This document shows, piece after piece, positions 3,792 through 19,847 of a DNA stretch of 64,000 nt. The translations under genes were made by a program, and so were the position numbers. This stretch comes from Planctomycetales bacterium (GTDB taxonomy: Bacteria; Planctomycetota; Planctomycetia; Isosphaerales; Isosphaeraceae), in assembly GCA_027449865.1 (NCBI GenBank), contig DAIDKV010000058.1, positions 1 through 64,000 on the forward strand. Reading direction: 5' to 3'. The notes beneath the pieces are model-generated. The model saw only the letters and a program-made list of their open reading frames with translations, had not been told where the DNA came from and made no database searches. Position 1 is the first letter of the stretch. Each line of letters starts with the position of its first letter.

Positions 3792-3965
3792 CTGCGAGAG
3801 GATATCCGCCGGTTGGGTTGTCCGGGAAGGTGTGGCCGGGAGAAGGCCGGAGCGGATCGGCGTGGGGCGGAAAAAAGTTGAACCCGTGCGGCCCCGATGG
3901 TGCAGTTAGGTAATGAGGCGACCGCGAGGGAGGAGCCCCAAGCGATCGCCGAGGGAGACGGCCGG

Positions 3966-4871
3966 ATGATTAAGTCGCCACCCCGACCCACGGACAGGCA
4001 ACTTCTGGATAGCTACGTGCGGCGAGGCGACGCCTCGGCGTTTCAGGATCTGGTTCGCCGGCACGGTCCGGCGGTGCATCGGGTTTGCCTTGGCGTCTTG
4101 AAGGATGTCCATGAAGCTGAGGATGCCTTTCAGGCGACGTTCATGGTCCTGGCGCGTCGGGCTCCGGAGATCGGCGAGCCGGAGGCCCTCGGCGGATGGC
4201 TGCGTGGTGTGGCGCATCGAGTCTCGATTCGGGAACGTCGGCGCTCGGTCAAGCGACGGGCCGTTGAGAAGACGACCGATGGGATCGCCGCGATGGAGCC
4301 CGAGGCGCCCTCGCGACAGCCGGAGATCGAACTTCGGGAACTGGTCGGCGAGGAATTGAGCCGGCTGCCGGACGAGTACCGCCGTCCGATCCTGTTGTGT
4401 TACCTCGACGGTCTGACACACGAACAGGCGGCGAACCGGCTTGAATGGCCGGTCGGGACCGTGAAGGTGAGACTGGTCCGGGGTCGTCGGCTCCTTCGAG
4501 AGCGGCTCGACCGGCGCGGAGTCGCTCTGGGCGCGGCCTTGCTGGTACTCCTCGGCTCGGGCCGACGCGCTCACGCACGGACTGGAGGGCTGATCGAGGC
4601 GACCGTCCGGAAGGCCGCGATGGAGTCCGCCAGCCGTCGGTCCGCGATCGCCCGTAAATCTCCGGGCGTTTTCCAGGATGTTCCCGGGTCCGAACGCCTC
4701 GGACGACTCTTTCGATACCCCGGTCTCTGGGCCGCGGCGCTGATTCTGGCACTGGCCCTGGGCTTCTCTGGACCCGTCGCGCGTGTCCTGGCCGGTCCAC
4801 CCACGCCGGAAGTCGATCCACTCACCGTTCCGAAAAACCTGGCTGATGTTTTGACGGTTGAGTGCCGCTGA
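3966..4871 (+). CDS. ECF-type sigma-70 factor with C-terminal membrane extension
   Basis: The 301-residue protein carries sigma region 2 at about residues 10-85 ([42 protein letters not shown]). Region 4 lies at about 115-175 ([18 protein letters not shown], then [19 protein letters not shown], the helix-turn-helix). After it come two hydrophobic segments ([11 protein letters not shown] and [14 protein letters not shown]), so the sigma domain is probably tethered to the membrane. Planctomycete ECF factors often have such tails, which may replace a separate anti-sigma factor. I chose the ATG at 3966 because GAGGGAG lies just upstream and the homologous region begins there. No anti-sigma gene is adjacent. 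It is divergent from the lipoprotein/DUF1559 pair. Confidence 0.85.
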
Positions 4872-16294: not shown

Positions 16295-17653
16295 TCAGGC
16301 CCCGTCGTCGGCGGGCGGCGAGGCGGGTGGGGCCGAGGTGTCGAATGGGTCGCCATCGGGTGGCATCGGAAGGGGCGGTCGCCCACGGCGCGGCGCATCG
16401 GGGACAACGTGTCTCGGCGCCGGGGGCCTGGCTTCCCCGGACTGTCTGGCAAGCGACTGGCGGATCATCACAGTCAGCTCGTTCAGCTTGCCTTCGAGCG
16501 CCGCGATTCGATCCTCGGGCGCGGGCCCCGGCTTCGGCCGATTCTTGCCGGTTGCCGCGATGAGCTGGTCGAGCTTTTTCTCCATCTCGTCGATCCGCTT
16601 CGTCAGGTCTTCGGTGGCCTTCTGCGAGGAGGCGTCGGAGAAGTCCCGGTCGAAGTAGAGGGACGGGGCCGGCCGCTGGGGACGCGGTCGCGCGGCCTGC
16701 ATCAGCGGCTTCGCCCGACCCTCGCCCGCGCGGACCGGCTGACCCGTCGAGGCGCCGGGCACGACCAGTCGATCGTAGGGGAGAATCGCGTAGTTGGTCG
16801 ACGAATCAGTTCCCATCGCGATTTCGTCGTAATTGATCGGCAGGATCTTCGGTGGCGAGCCCTTGGGGAAGCTTCGGATGAGGCGGATATGAGCCCGATC
16901 GGCGGTCGGCATCAGGCCGCCGGCGTACTGGATCAGGTCCAGCACGTGATCGCCGCCTGTGTAAGGAAGCCGGCCTGGGTACTGGACATCGCCCAGGATA
17001 TAGTACGTCGCGCTGTTGTATGCGGTCACGTCAACGAAGACGCGATCGGTTTCCTTCGGGTCGATCACGTGGGGCCGGCCCTGCGCGTCTCGCATGGGCT
17101 CATTTGTCTCGTCGTCGATCGCGAGGAGTCCGAGCGTCTCATCGTTGAGGTATTTTCTGAGGTGCAGGACGATCCGCTCCTTGATTTGCGGGATGGTGAG
17201 GCCGGCGACGGGCAGCTCACCGTAGAAGCCCAGGCTGATCCGCCCGTCAGGACGGACCAGCCGCTCGCCCGAGATCGGCCGGCCCGGCAGGGCCTCCAGC
17301 ACCTCGACGAGGATCAGGTCGGGCGGCTCGACGACATACTCGGGGCGGTTCACCGCGGCGGGGTTCGATCGAGGCGTCTCCGGGGCTTCCTCCGCGGGTG
17401 CCTCGGCCTCCGCGGGCTCGCTGATTTGAGGCGGAATCTCGCGATACGACTTCTTCGCCTCCTCGGAGAGCCCCGGCGGTCCGACAAAGGCATCGCCATC
17501 GGGCCCGGTCGGTGGGGCAGGAATGATCGCCGATGGCTGCTCCGCTTTCGGGACGGGAGGCTGACTGTCGGATCGTTGCCGCGCCCTGACGTCTGTCATC
17601 GCAAAGCAGGCGACGACAGACCCGATCGCGACCATCCTGAGGGGAACTCTCAT
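16295..17653 (-). CDS. Wza-like polysaccharide export protein with SLBB domain and coiled coil
   Basis: The 452-residue exported protein has a signal peptide (MVAIGSVVACFAMTDVRA), a Pro/Glu/Ala-rich stretch, and a Poly_export domain from about residue 105 (YVVEPPDLILVEVLEALPG). An SLBB-type domain at about 215-300 (TYYILGDVQYPGRLPYTGG) follows. A predicted coiled coil at about 345-370 (RIDEMEKKLDQLIAATG) leads into a Pro/Arg-rich tail. Wza-type proteins form outer-membrane channels for capsule or exopolysaccharide. An extra loop of about 30 residues (NEPMRDAQGRP) splits the export domain. It is a close paralogue of the C-terminal half of the sigma fusion encoded 131 bp upstream. No Wzc or Wzx/Wzy gene is nearby. 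Confidence 0.85.
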   Translation of the reverse strand: MRVPLRMVAIGSVVACFAMTDVRARQRSDSQPPVPKAEQPSAIIPAPPTGPDGDAFVGPPGLSEEAKKSYREIPPQISEPAEAEAPAEEAPETPRSNPAAVNRPEYVVEPPDLILVEVLEALPGRPISGERLVRPDGRISLGFYGELPVAGLTIPQIKERIVLHLRKYLNDETLGLLAIDDETNEPMRDAQGRPHVIDPKETDRVFVDVTAYNSATYYILGDVQYPGRLPYTGGDHVLDLIQYAGGLMPTADRAHIRLIRSFPKGSPPKILPINYDEIAMGTDSSTNYAILPYDRLVVPGASTGQPVRAGEGRAKPLMQAARPRPQRPAPSLYFDRDFSDASSQKATEDLTKRIDEMEKKLDQLIAATGKNRPKPGPAPEDRIAALEGKLNELTVMIRQSLARQSGEARPPAPRHVVPDAPRRGRPPLPMPPDGDPFDTSAPPASPPADDGA

Positions 17654-17784: not shown

Positions 17785-19599
17785 TTAGTGTTCGCGACGT
17801 TCAAGAGCTTCGAGGATGCGGTCCAGTTTCTGCTCGACGGCGTCGAGCCGGGACTCCAGCGATCGGAGCATCGATCGAGTGGGGCCTTGTTCAGGAATTT
17901 GCGGGCTACTGGATGATCGCGGTGGGGTCAGGCGGTGAGGTTGCGACTCGGGCGCCGGCCTCGCTGATTCCGGCCTGGGCCGGTCTGGGGTCGCGGCAGT
18001 GGGATCGATGGCGGGCTCTCCGGTTCGCCCCACGACGAGCCGATCCCCGGGCCTGAGCTGGTAGTTCGTGCTGGGGTCGTCGCCGATCGTGATCGAATCG
18101 ACGTCGATCGGCATTTTTTTCAGCGTCCCGTCCGGCTGCGGGCGATACAGGACCACCCCCTGATGGTTCGCGTCGGGCGCCAGCCCTCCGACATTGTTGA
18201 GCGCGTCCAGCACCGTCTCGTGTCCGGTGATGGGCAATCGGCCGGGAACAGCGACCGCCCCCTGCACATAGTAAACCTTGCTGTTATAAGCGGTGACGTC
18301 CACGAAAATGCGATCGGTATCCTTGAAGTCCTTGATCAGAACCTGCCGCCCTTCCTTGTCATACTTCGGCTCGTTGGTCTCCTCGTCGATCTCGACCAGC
18401 CCGAGTATCTCGTCGTTGACGTACTTGCGAAGGTGCTCGACGATCACGGCCTTCGCCTCCATGATCGTGAGACCGGCGAGGTAGACCTCGCCGTAGAATC
18501 CCAGGCTGATCTTGCCGTCGGGACGGACCAGCCGCTCGCCCGAGATCGGCCGGCCCGGCAGAGCCTCCAGCACCTCGACAAGGATCAGGTCGGGCGGCTC
18601 GATGATGTAATCGGGCATCGTTTGCAACGCGGGCTGGACCTTCTTCGTGGCTGTACTGGGAGCCCGCACCGGATCGCGGTGAATCGCCCTGGCTCGCGGC
18701 GCGGGGCGTTGCTTCGCGGCCTGCGGTGCCGCCAGGATCACCCCGGCGGCCCCGGAACCGATCAGCATCAGACACAAGGCGGTTGTTTTCAGTTTCATGA
18801 CAAGCATTCCCTTCAACGTTTTATGAACCAGGAAAGCCACCGGCGCCGACGCGGCGACGGTTGTTGCAAGATTCCCCCCGGCCGCGGCCTGGGCCGCCGC
18901 GGTGACCCACGCCGAGGGCACGGCGACCGTCGGCGGGACGATCGCGGCAAGGTCGAGCCCGCTCGCCGACGCGACGACCATCGGCGCGATTCCCCGGCGG
19001 GTCAATCGTCGATGCAGGAGGTCGCGAGCCCGGGCGATCCGGCTCCGGATCGTCCCGAGAGGACAACCCAGTTGCGCCGCCGCTTGCTCGTGGGTGAGAC
19101 CCTCCCAGTAGCAGAGCACCACCGCCGTCCGGTATTTCTCCGGGAGGCGGTCGACCTCCTCCTGCACGATCGGGGCGAGGGCTTCGCGATCGATCGCGTC
19201 GGTGTGATTGGGCTCAACCGCCTCGACCACCCGGAGCGCAGCGAGCCCCTCGATCTTCCGCCGACGTGCCGACTCGACCCGCGCCCGCGCCGAGACCCGG
19301 CACGCGACGCCGTAGAGCCAGCCGCCGAGTGAATCGAGCTTCCCCAGCGCCCCGGCCCGACGGACCAGGACGAGAAACGTCGCCTGAAACGCGTCGTGGG
19401 CGTCGTCGGCACCGAGCCCCGCCCCCCGGCAAACCCGAGCGACCATCGGACCGTGCCGACGGACCAGTACCTCGAACGCCGACGCATCTCGATGATCGGC
19501 GAACCGGTCGAGTAACTGACGATCGGTGAGCCCGATCGCGGTCCCCTCGCCGAACAGGATCTGCATCTCTCGCGTGGCGGCAAACGGTTTCGCGGCCAT
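17785..19599 (-). CDS. ECF sigma factor fused to a Wza-like polysaccharide export protein
   Basis: The 604-residue ORF combines two normally separate proteins. Residues about 15-190 are a complete ECF sigma factor (FEVLVRRHGPMVARVC, HDAFQATFLVLVRR, LGGWLYGVACRVSARAR, then LPEKYRTAVVLCYWEGLT and the helix-turn-helix HEQAAAQLGCPLGTIRSRI). An Ala-rich linker reaches a signal-peptide-like segment at about 268-291 (MKLKTTALCLMLIGSGAAG). After it come Poly_export (from about 332), an SLBB domain (about 440-510) and a short coiled coil at the end. The ATG at 18798 before MKLKTT has AAGGGA upstream, so a separate exported protein may be made from inside the gene. GGGGAG 9 nt upstream supports the main start at 19599. 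Membrane tethering of the sigma domain is an inference. Confidence 0.82.
   Translation of the reverse strand: MAAKPFAATREMQILFGEGTAIGLTDRQLLDRFADHRDASAFEVLVRRHGPMVARVCRGAGLGADDAHDAFQATFLVLVRRAGALGKLDSLGGWLYGVACRVSARARVESARRRKIEGLAALRVVEAVEPNHTDAIDREALAPIVQEEVDRLPEKYRTAVVLCYWEGLTHEQAAAQLGCPLGTIRSRIARARDLLHRRLTRRGIAPMVVASASGLDLAAIVPPTVAVPSAWVTAAAQAAAGGNLATTVAASAPVAFLVHKTLKGMLVMKLKTTALCLMLIGSGAAGVILAAPQAAKQRPAPRARAIHRDPVRAPSTATKKVQPALQTMPDYIIEPPDLILVEVLEALPGRPISGERLVRPDGKISLGFYGEVYLAGLTIMEAKAVIVEHLRKYVNDEILGLVEIDEETNEPKYDKEGRQVLIKDFKDTDRIFVDVTAYNSKVYYVQGAVAVPGRLPITGHETVLDALNNVGGLAPDANHQGVVLYRPQPDGTLKKMPIDVDSITIGDDPSTNYQLRPGDRLVVGRTGEPAIDPTAATPDRPRPESARPAPESQPHRLTPPRSSSSPQIPEQGPTRSMLRSLESRLDAVEQKLDRILEALERREH
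18796..18798 (-). promoter_or_regulatory. Possible internal translation start for the export half of the sigma fusion
   Basis: An in-frame ATG at 18798 begins a textbook signal peptide (MKLKTTALCLMLIGSG) inside the fusion gene. It is preceded by GAAGGGAATGCTTGTC, which offers AAGGGA as a ribosome-binding site. Initiation here would give about 337 residues, much like the neighbouring stand-alone export protein. Confidence 0.4.
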
Positions 19600-19847
19600 C
19601 CGGTCCGGCTCCCCTGGTGATCGCCCGATCGCGGTTTCTACAGGGAATGCCGCGAACCGCGTCGAGCTATCCACAATTCTCCGGAGACGGCCGATTCCCG
19701 AGAAGGGCATCAATCGATCGATGGCGACAACAAGGCGGGGTCGCTGCTAGATTCCGTGCGTCAATGACAATACAATTGTGCTTCAGGGAAACCGAATTGG
19801 GAGATGAGCCCACCACCTCTCCACGGTTCTTTTGAGGAACCCTAACG

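Follow-up and report, generated by a model that had tools for sequence, protein, structure and literature searches.

The fusion gene and its domains

The window analysed here is a stretch of 64,000 nucleotides (nt) from a Planctomycetales bacterium of the family Isosphaeraceae (assembly GCA_027449865.1, contig DAIDKV010000058.1, positions 1 to 64,000), and genes throughout are open reading frames (ORFs) read from the sequence. Its minus strand carries an uninterrupted frame of 604 codons (19599..17785), in which an extracytoplasmic function (ECF) sigma factor is followed by a linker, a transmembrane (TM) helix, the Poly_export and SLBB domains of an outer membrane polysaccharide export (OPX) protein, and a C-terminal helix. 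The features of this gene are the following.

17785..19599, minus strand: fusion gene, 604 amino acids (aa) (open frame and Pfam domains)
19609..19614, minus strand: canonical Shine-Dalgarno (SD) sequence GGGGAG, with a gap of 9 nt to the start ATG (sequence)
19599..19597, minus strand: canonical start ATG (sequence)
19285..19467, minus strand: Sigma-70 region 2, including Cys57 (Pfam; PDB relatives SigE, SigH and RpoE)
19021..19167, minus strand: Sigma-70 region 4, including Cys163 (Pfam)
18814..18987, minus strand: Ala-rich linker, the end of which is the conserved pre-helix segment (sequence and homologues)
18727..18777, minus strand: hydrophobic helix, a TM anchor in the full-length protein and signal-peptide-like in the putative internal product (hydropathy)
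18412..18621, minus strand: Poly_export domain, PF02563 (Pfam and structure model)
18031..18276, minus strand: single SLBB domain, PF22461/PF10531 (Pfam and structure model)
17791..17880, minus strand: C-terminal charged amphipathic helix of 30 residues, coiled-coil-like and recurrent among fusions (sequence and AlphaFold)

A preliminary description of this DNA had read the frame as a sigma factor joined to a Wza-like export protein through an Ala-rich linker and a signal-peptide-like helix. Its coordinates and its account of the parts are correct, and Pfam and NCBIfam find the domains in the order described. In Pfam this order is sigma region 2 (Sigma70_r2, 22.5 bits, slightly under the cut-off of 24), region 4 (Sigma70_r4_2, 3.5e-16, 59 bits), Poly_export (1.2e-13, 51.5 bits) and SLBB_2 (3.5e-9, 37 bits). 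Regions 2 and 4 are the only ECF sigma regions, and the protein scores above the cut-off of the NCBIfam sigma70-ECF model. Between the two halves, hydropathy predicts one hydrophobic helix of 17-19 residues (Kyte-Doolittle value ~2.1-2.2), with MKLK on its N-terminal side and a Pro-rich stretch on its C-terminal side.

AlphaFold models of 27 sequences (mean pLDDT 81) have a Poly_export/SLBB body and a C-terminal helix of 30 residues. The top PDB matches of the export part in Foldseek are Wza proteins (7xfd, TM-score 0.78 by target; also 2j58 and 2w8i), the class-3 OPX protein WzaB (9n9a) is also among the best, and sequence profiles match Wza chains with E values of 1e-22 to 2e-25. Pfam found no Wza_C or GfcC domain (PF18412, PF06251) in the fusion protein at E<=0.1. 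Poly_export and SLBB without these two domains fit a class-3 OPX protein, a class that has Poly_export and SLBB only and needs a separate outer-membrane barrel (PMC9603273). The export part is therefore Wza-like in its fold, as had been proposed, but because the outer-membrane helix of Wza is absent it is class-3 like and would not alone form an outer-membrane pore. To judge from its sequence, the charged C-terminal helix probably forms a coiled coil rather than lining a pore. The class-3 proteins WzaX/S/B of Myxococcus (PMC9603273) share with the window copy the Poly_export and SLBB domains, the lack of Wza_C and GfcC, and the Wza fold; the window copy differs in sitting behind a sigma factor, in its extra charged C-terminal helix, and in having no conserved export cluster nearby.

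The sigma half appears ECF57-like when its Cys pair and its long C-terminal extension are compared with the published description. We read Cys57 in sigma2 (VCRGAGLG) and Cys163 in sigma4 (VVLCYW), and ECF57 factors (for example, WP_015250107.1 of Singulisphaera) are planctomycete ECF sigma factors described with a long C-terminal extension and a Cys in both sigma2 and sigma4 (PMC8999054). For these factors, however, the description gives WD40-like repeats and a mechanism based on protein interaction, and it mentions neither an OPX tail nor an internal ribosome-binding site (PMC8999054). The WD40-like extension, which is prevalent but not universal in ECF57, is absent from the window protein, where Poly_export/SLBB forms the tail, and WD40 is found in paralogues of the same genome. 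Around 27 close sigma relatives are encoded in this genome, nearly all with a hydrophobic helix after the sigma part and a long tail, which may be CarboxypepD_reg (6), WD40, HlyD/CusB, OEP (TolC-like), Peptidase_M16_C, AhpC/Redoxin or Tricorn_C1. The 68 tails collected from other genomes include CarboxypepD_reg (10), STN (4), OEP (2) and redoxin (2). STN (secretin/TonB N-terminal), on four sigma tails, is the signalling domain type of FecA-like receptors. The HlyD/CusB membrane-fusion protein and the OEP/TolC-like domain of the window genome are fused to the same sigma type at loci L091 and L093, respectively, so that other components of export machines are also carried by sigma factors.

Long-tailed ECF sigma factors are already known in planctomycetes. 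A sigma factor, a TM segment and an extracytoplasmic domain are also combined in one polypeptide in IutY and in the ECF52 protein SCO4117, the latter with a Pro-rich region and a carbohydrate-binding domain in addition (PMC8999054). These belong to an unrelated sigma group, and the window fusion differs from them in having no detected zinc-finger or FecR-like anti-sigma domain and in having a putative internal start. The preliminary description had called the partner of the sigma factor undescribed, and the sigma/OPX combination is indeed absent from the open literature that we searched. Against this literature the OPX partner is new but the class of architecture is not: each genome encodes dozens of ECF57-like sigma factors whose extracytoplasmic tails can be exchanged, and the fusion belongs to them. 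The same literature yielded no account of the OPX partner, of its having been captured repeatedly or of an internal ribosome-binding site in these sigma factors, although our coverage of work on ECF classification and planctomycete sigma factors was incomplete and a prior mention is possible.

Distribution and origin of the fusion

Relatives were gathered by searching with the export part and then re-reading each locus. The same fusion, which the preliminary description had proposed to look for elsewhere, recurs in over 20 further genomes of the family, with sigma factor, linker, hydrophobic helix and Poly_export in frame and in this order. Including the window there are 27 fusion ORFs; SLBB is mostly present and the charged C-terminal helix usually so. 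Carriers include Singulisphaera acidiphila DSM 18658 (L142), Singulisphaera sp. GP187 (L143), Aquisphaera insulae (L122) and Paludisphaera soli (L148), and the fusion is also seen in complete genomes of cultured strains. Gene-fission pairs, with sigma and export parts as adjacent separate ORFs, were looked for among the relatives and none was found. The preliminary description would have taken homologues that are always two separate genes as a sign of a lost stop codon or an assembly error. Neither of these, nor wrong annotation or a chance ORF, has any supporting point, and all are refuted by the same in-frame order in so many genomes. Outside the family, the sample that we examined yielded stand-alone export genes only and no fusion.

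Forcing the fused export domains into one clade costs 82 log-likelihood units (p-AU 0.0007, approximately unbiased test). Several of them adjoin stand-alone genes in the tree, some of the same genome assembly (L055/L131, L047/L123 and L054/L138). The sigma halves are likewise scattered in the sigma tree, in which the starred branches require at least 6 changes; the lineage of the window is the largest set there, with an export tail in 11 of its 12 rows. These trees indicate that the fusion arose several times independently. Repeated fusion is the simplest reading, and part of the pattern could stem from gene conversion between fused and stand-alone genes. An export domain captured time and again in independent events is more easily understood as functional than as accidental.

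A stand-alone export gene lies next to the fusion.

16295..17653, minus strand: neighbouring stand-alone Poly_export and SLBB paralogue, 452 aa, with its own signal sequence (Pfam)

This paralogue has a lipobox-like VVAC within its signal sequence. Such a gene adjoins the fusion within the genus of the window (in the window and also in L036, L039 and L041), and nothing in the gene neighbourhood is conserved beyond the genus. Among the other export genes, genome G034 has four Poly_export genes in tandem (L064:3550-8480 and L174:3755-8685), and L057:3470-7861 is a frame of 1464 codons with an export domain and without this sigma type. Four loci titled Candidatus Kuenenia stuttgartiensis (L124, L125, L128 and L183) hold planctomycete export genes, three of them Isosphaeraceae-like, and these titles of metagenome-assembled genomes look wrong.

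A putative internal start before the helix

In the fusions, a Met stands almost always directly before the hydrophobic helix, often with GGAG 7-12 nt upstream. In the window copy the corresponding features are the following.

18808..18814, minus strand: putative internal SD GAAGGGA (duplex with the anti-SD -9.3 kcal/mol; homologues mostly have (A)AGGAG)
18796..18798, minus strand: putative internal start ATG (MKLKTTALC...), 9 nt after the SD (sequence and family)
17785..18798, minus strand: putative second product of 337 aa, with signal peptide, Pro-rich stretch, Poly_export, SLBB and helix (predicted)

The site (18814..18781, minus strand) reads GAAGGGA, 9 nt and then ATGAAACTGAAAACAACC, and GAAGGGA pairs with the anti-SD over 7 bases with one G-U. 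The 16S rRNA 3' end of the family, taken from relatives, is ...GGATCACCTCCTTTCT, a normal anti-SD; the tail carries GGTTGGATCACCTCC and not GGCTGG. The genome bin of the window was itself searched for a 16S end and shows none. The putative product of 337 aa has the same layout as the adjoining stand-alone paralogue. Nearly every homologue has one hydrophobic helix in the linker, and among 90 homologues the N-region has a net charge of +1 or more in 98%, with the hydrophobic core ending ~25 residues from the Met.

We tested the internal site in 110 genes that are <75% identical, with a null model in which each gene was redrawn synonymously from its own codon usage in 300 rounds. GGAG is present upstream of the pre-TM Met in 82 of these genes, against 20.2 +/- 3.8 expected (maximum 30 in the 300 rounds), and AGGAG in 53, against 6.7 +/- 2.1 expected; the 110 genes are related paralogues, at whose distances synonymous sites should be near saturation. 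The subset of export fusions behaves alike (21 of 24, 4.8 expected). GC-rich control words before the pre-TM Met showed no enrichment over synonymous recoding in the 110 genes. GGAG precedes only 9.6% of the other internal Mets of the same genes. The pre-TM Mets were picked by hydropathy, and two comparisons were designed to remove that bias. At Mets preceding internal TM helices of other genes, GGAG was found in 2 of 73 (2.7%). In 42 independent gene pairs, anchored regardless of the SD, codon identity at positions -6 and -5 is 0.91 and 0.90, against a background of 0.61 (p=3e-4 for codons -6 to -4).

The choice of codons points in the same direction. The linker Gly is encoded by GGA in 55 cases, by GGG in 10 and by GGC in none, whereas at three conserved Gly sites within the sigma domain these genes use GGA in only 5/58, 4/58 and 1/23 cases. 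With GGA rare at the sigma sites and dominant in the linker, neither shared descent nor codon preference explains the pattern. Codon-level counts were used because an anti-SD energy test on a single gene is weak, as Glu/Gln-Gly codons pair well in any spelling. The gap between the end of GGAG and the Met is most often 11 nt (55 genes) or 7-8 nt, close to the gap of 8-12 nt, with a peak at 9-10, that these genes have at their canonical sigma starts. The site also reaches other planctomycete families (15 of 31, against 6%), and it is found in 0 of 3 genes, a small number, that have the helix but almost no domain afterwards. Judged from these sequence comparisons, the nucleotides of the pre-helix SD and Met are under selection beyond that on the protein.

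We infer from this that translation may also initiate internally, so that one gene would give a tethered sigma-OPX protein and a sigma-free OPX protein with its own signal peptide. In-frame internal starts are a general phenomenon in bacterial genes. The sites described here share with them a single ORF, a second in-frame start and a (here predicted) N-terminally shortened protein, and differ in the position of the second start, which falls at a signal-peptide-like helix, and in its recurrence throughout a sigma family whose tails change. The preliminary description had assumed a single polypeptide across the membrane; the conserved in-frame fusion and the predicted membrane-crossing helix agree with this, but the internal ribosome-binding site suggests two products.

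Two further observations concern these sites. At the linker position directly before the internal ATG, 40 of 55 genes have a C, against 20.6 expected. The window also contains a second ECF57-type sigma gene (3882-4868, plus strand), with a hydrophobic helix and ~29 residues after it, which has no pre-helix Met and no internal SD.

A possible mechanism and its alternatives

The window protein may thus be a membrane-anchored ECF57-like sigma factor with a class-3 type OPX protein as its periplasmic half. Translation from the sigma ATG would give the full-length protein, with its N terminus inside and its C terminus outside, and hold the sigma factor at the membrane. Translation from the internal ATG would give the sigma-free OPX protein, in which the same helix would serve as a signal peptide into the Sec pathway. 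Both forms of the OPX protein, tethered and free, would be part of one envelope complex or bind its substrate, possibly held together through their C-terminal helices. The internal site would set their ratio by translation, such that co-assembly or competition could read the state of the complex. This state would reach the tethered sigma factor and lead to its release, for which regulated proteolysis close to the helix is the likeliest route. Proteolytic release, through which the preliminary description thought that export status could be turned into gene expression, is plausible by analogy with IutY, a precedent (PMC8999054). In the window protein and its homologues, hydropathy predicts a TM helix between sigma and extracytoplasmic domain, as in sigma factors activated by regulated intramembrane proteolysis. 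We lean, with some reserve, towards this joint reading of dual products, tethering, sensing and release.

Several results weigh against it. The window copy has GAAGGGA in place of GGAG as its SD, which does not reach significance by itself (p=0.08), so for this copy an internal start is argued from the family. Cleavage motifs of the type [AVST]xA are only mildly enriched (0.77, against 0.63 in shuffled sequences), and with so weak an enrichment the internal product might stay anchored. The Pfam scan found no recognisable anti-sigma domain in the extension and no dedicated protease was seen, and the comparison of neighbourhoods revealed no polysaccharide gene cluster conserved around the fusion.

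Alternatively, the full-length fusion is the only product and acts as a tethered sigma factor that senses through its OPX-derived part, with the SD-like sequence making the ribosome pause and so aiding helix insertion or sigma folding. SD-like sequences within genes have been suggested to slow ribosomes down. The frame is uninterrupted in all cases, and sigma-TM-sensor proteins are known (ECF52 and IutY; PMC8999054). However, the motif accompanies a conserved ATG and stands at the distance usual for a start codon, the pre-TM Mets of other genes lack it, and it is not obvious what a pause would achieve ahead of helix synthesis, so we regard this alternative as unlikely though not negligible. 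More doubtful still is a polyprotein, in which signal peptidase would cut after the helix, so that one translation product would yield both a free OPX protein and a sigma factor that keeps a stub in the membrane. The helix does have the anatomy of a signal peptide, often with an A-x-A-like site, and the same set includes OEP and HlyD tails, domains that normally act away from the inner membrane, but the conserved internal SD is left unexplained and the A-x-A enrichment is weak; such cleavage may also operate alongside internal initiation. A further alternative is a programmed frameshift, stimulated by the SD, that would terminate translation near the helix and free a soluble sigma factor. In dnaX-type -1 frameshifting, SD-like stimulators lie at a similar distance, and here the +1 frame hits a stop soon after the Met. 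We consider this very improbable, since there is no conserved slippery sequence, the frequency of +1 stops is near the null (0.84, against 0.79) and stops come later in the -1 frame than expected.

Internal initiation, if shared among these genes, would leave each of them with one protein that gene catalogues do not list. Planctomycetes have very many ECF sigma factors, and a sigma factor attached to a part of an export machine names a candidate signal source. The sequences suggest that planctomycetes have repeatedly joined a sigma factor to a part of a sugar-export channel, and that through a conserved hidden ribosome-binding site the export part may also be made alone. It is possible, with slightly less than an even chance in our view, that this reflects a general planctomycete design. 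Every one of the dozens of ECF57-like genes in a genome would then encode two proteins in a single frame, a tethered sigma factor with an envelope module and, through the conserved internal ribosome-binding site, the module alone with a signal peptide. The modules (OPX, HlyD, TolC-like, STN, protease or adhesive repeat) would be swapped in evolution, and the switch would be set by competition or co-assembly of tethered and free copies. Each part of an envelope machine would in this way carry its own transcription switch.
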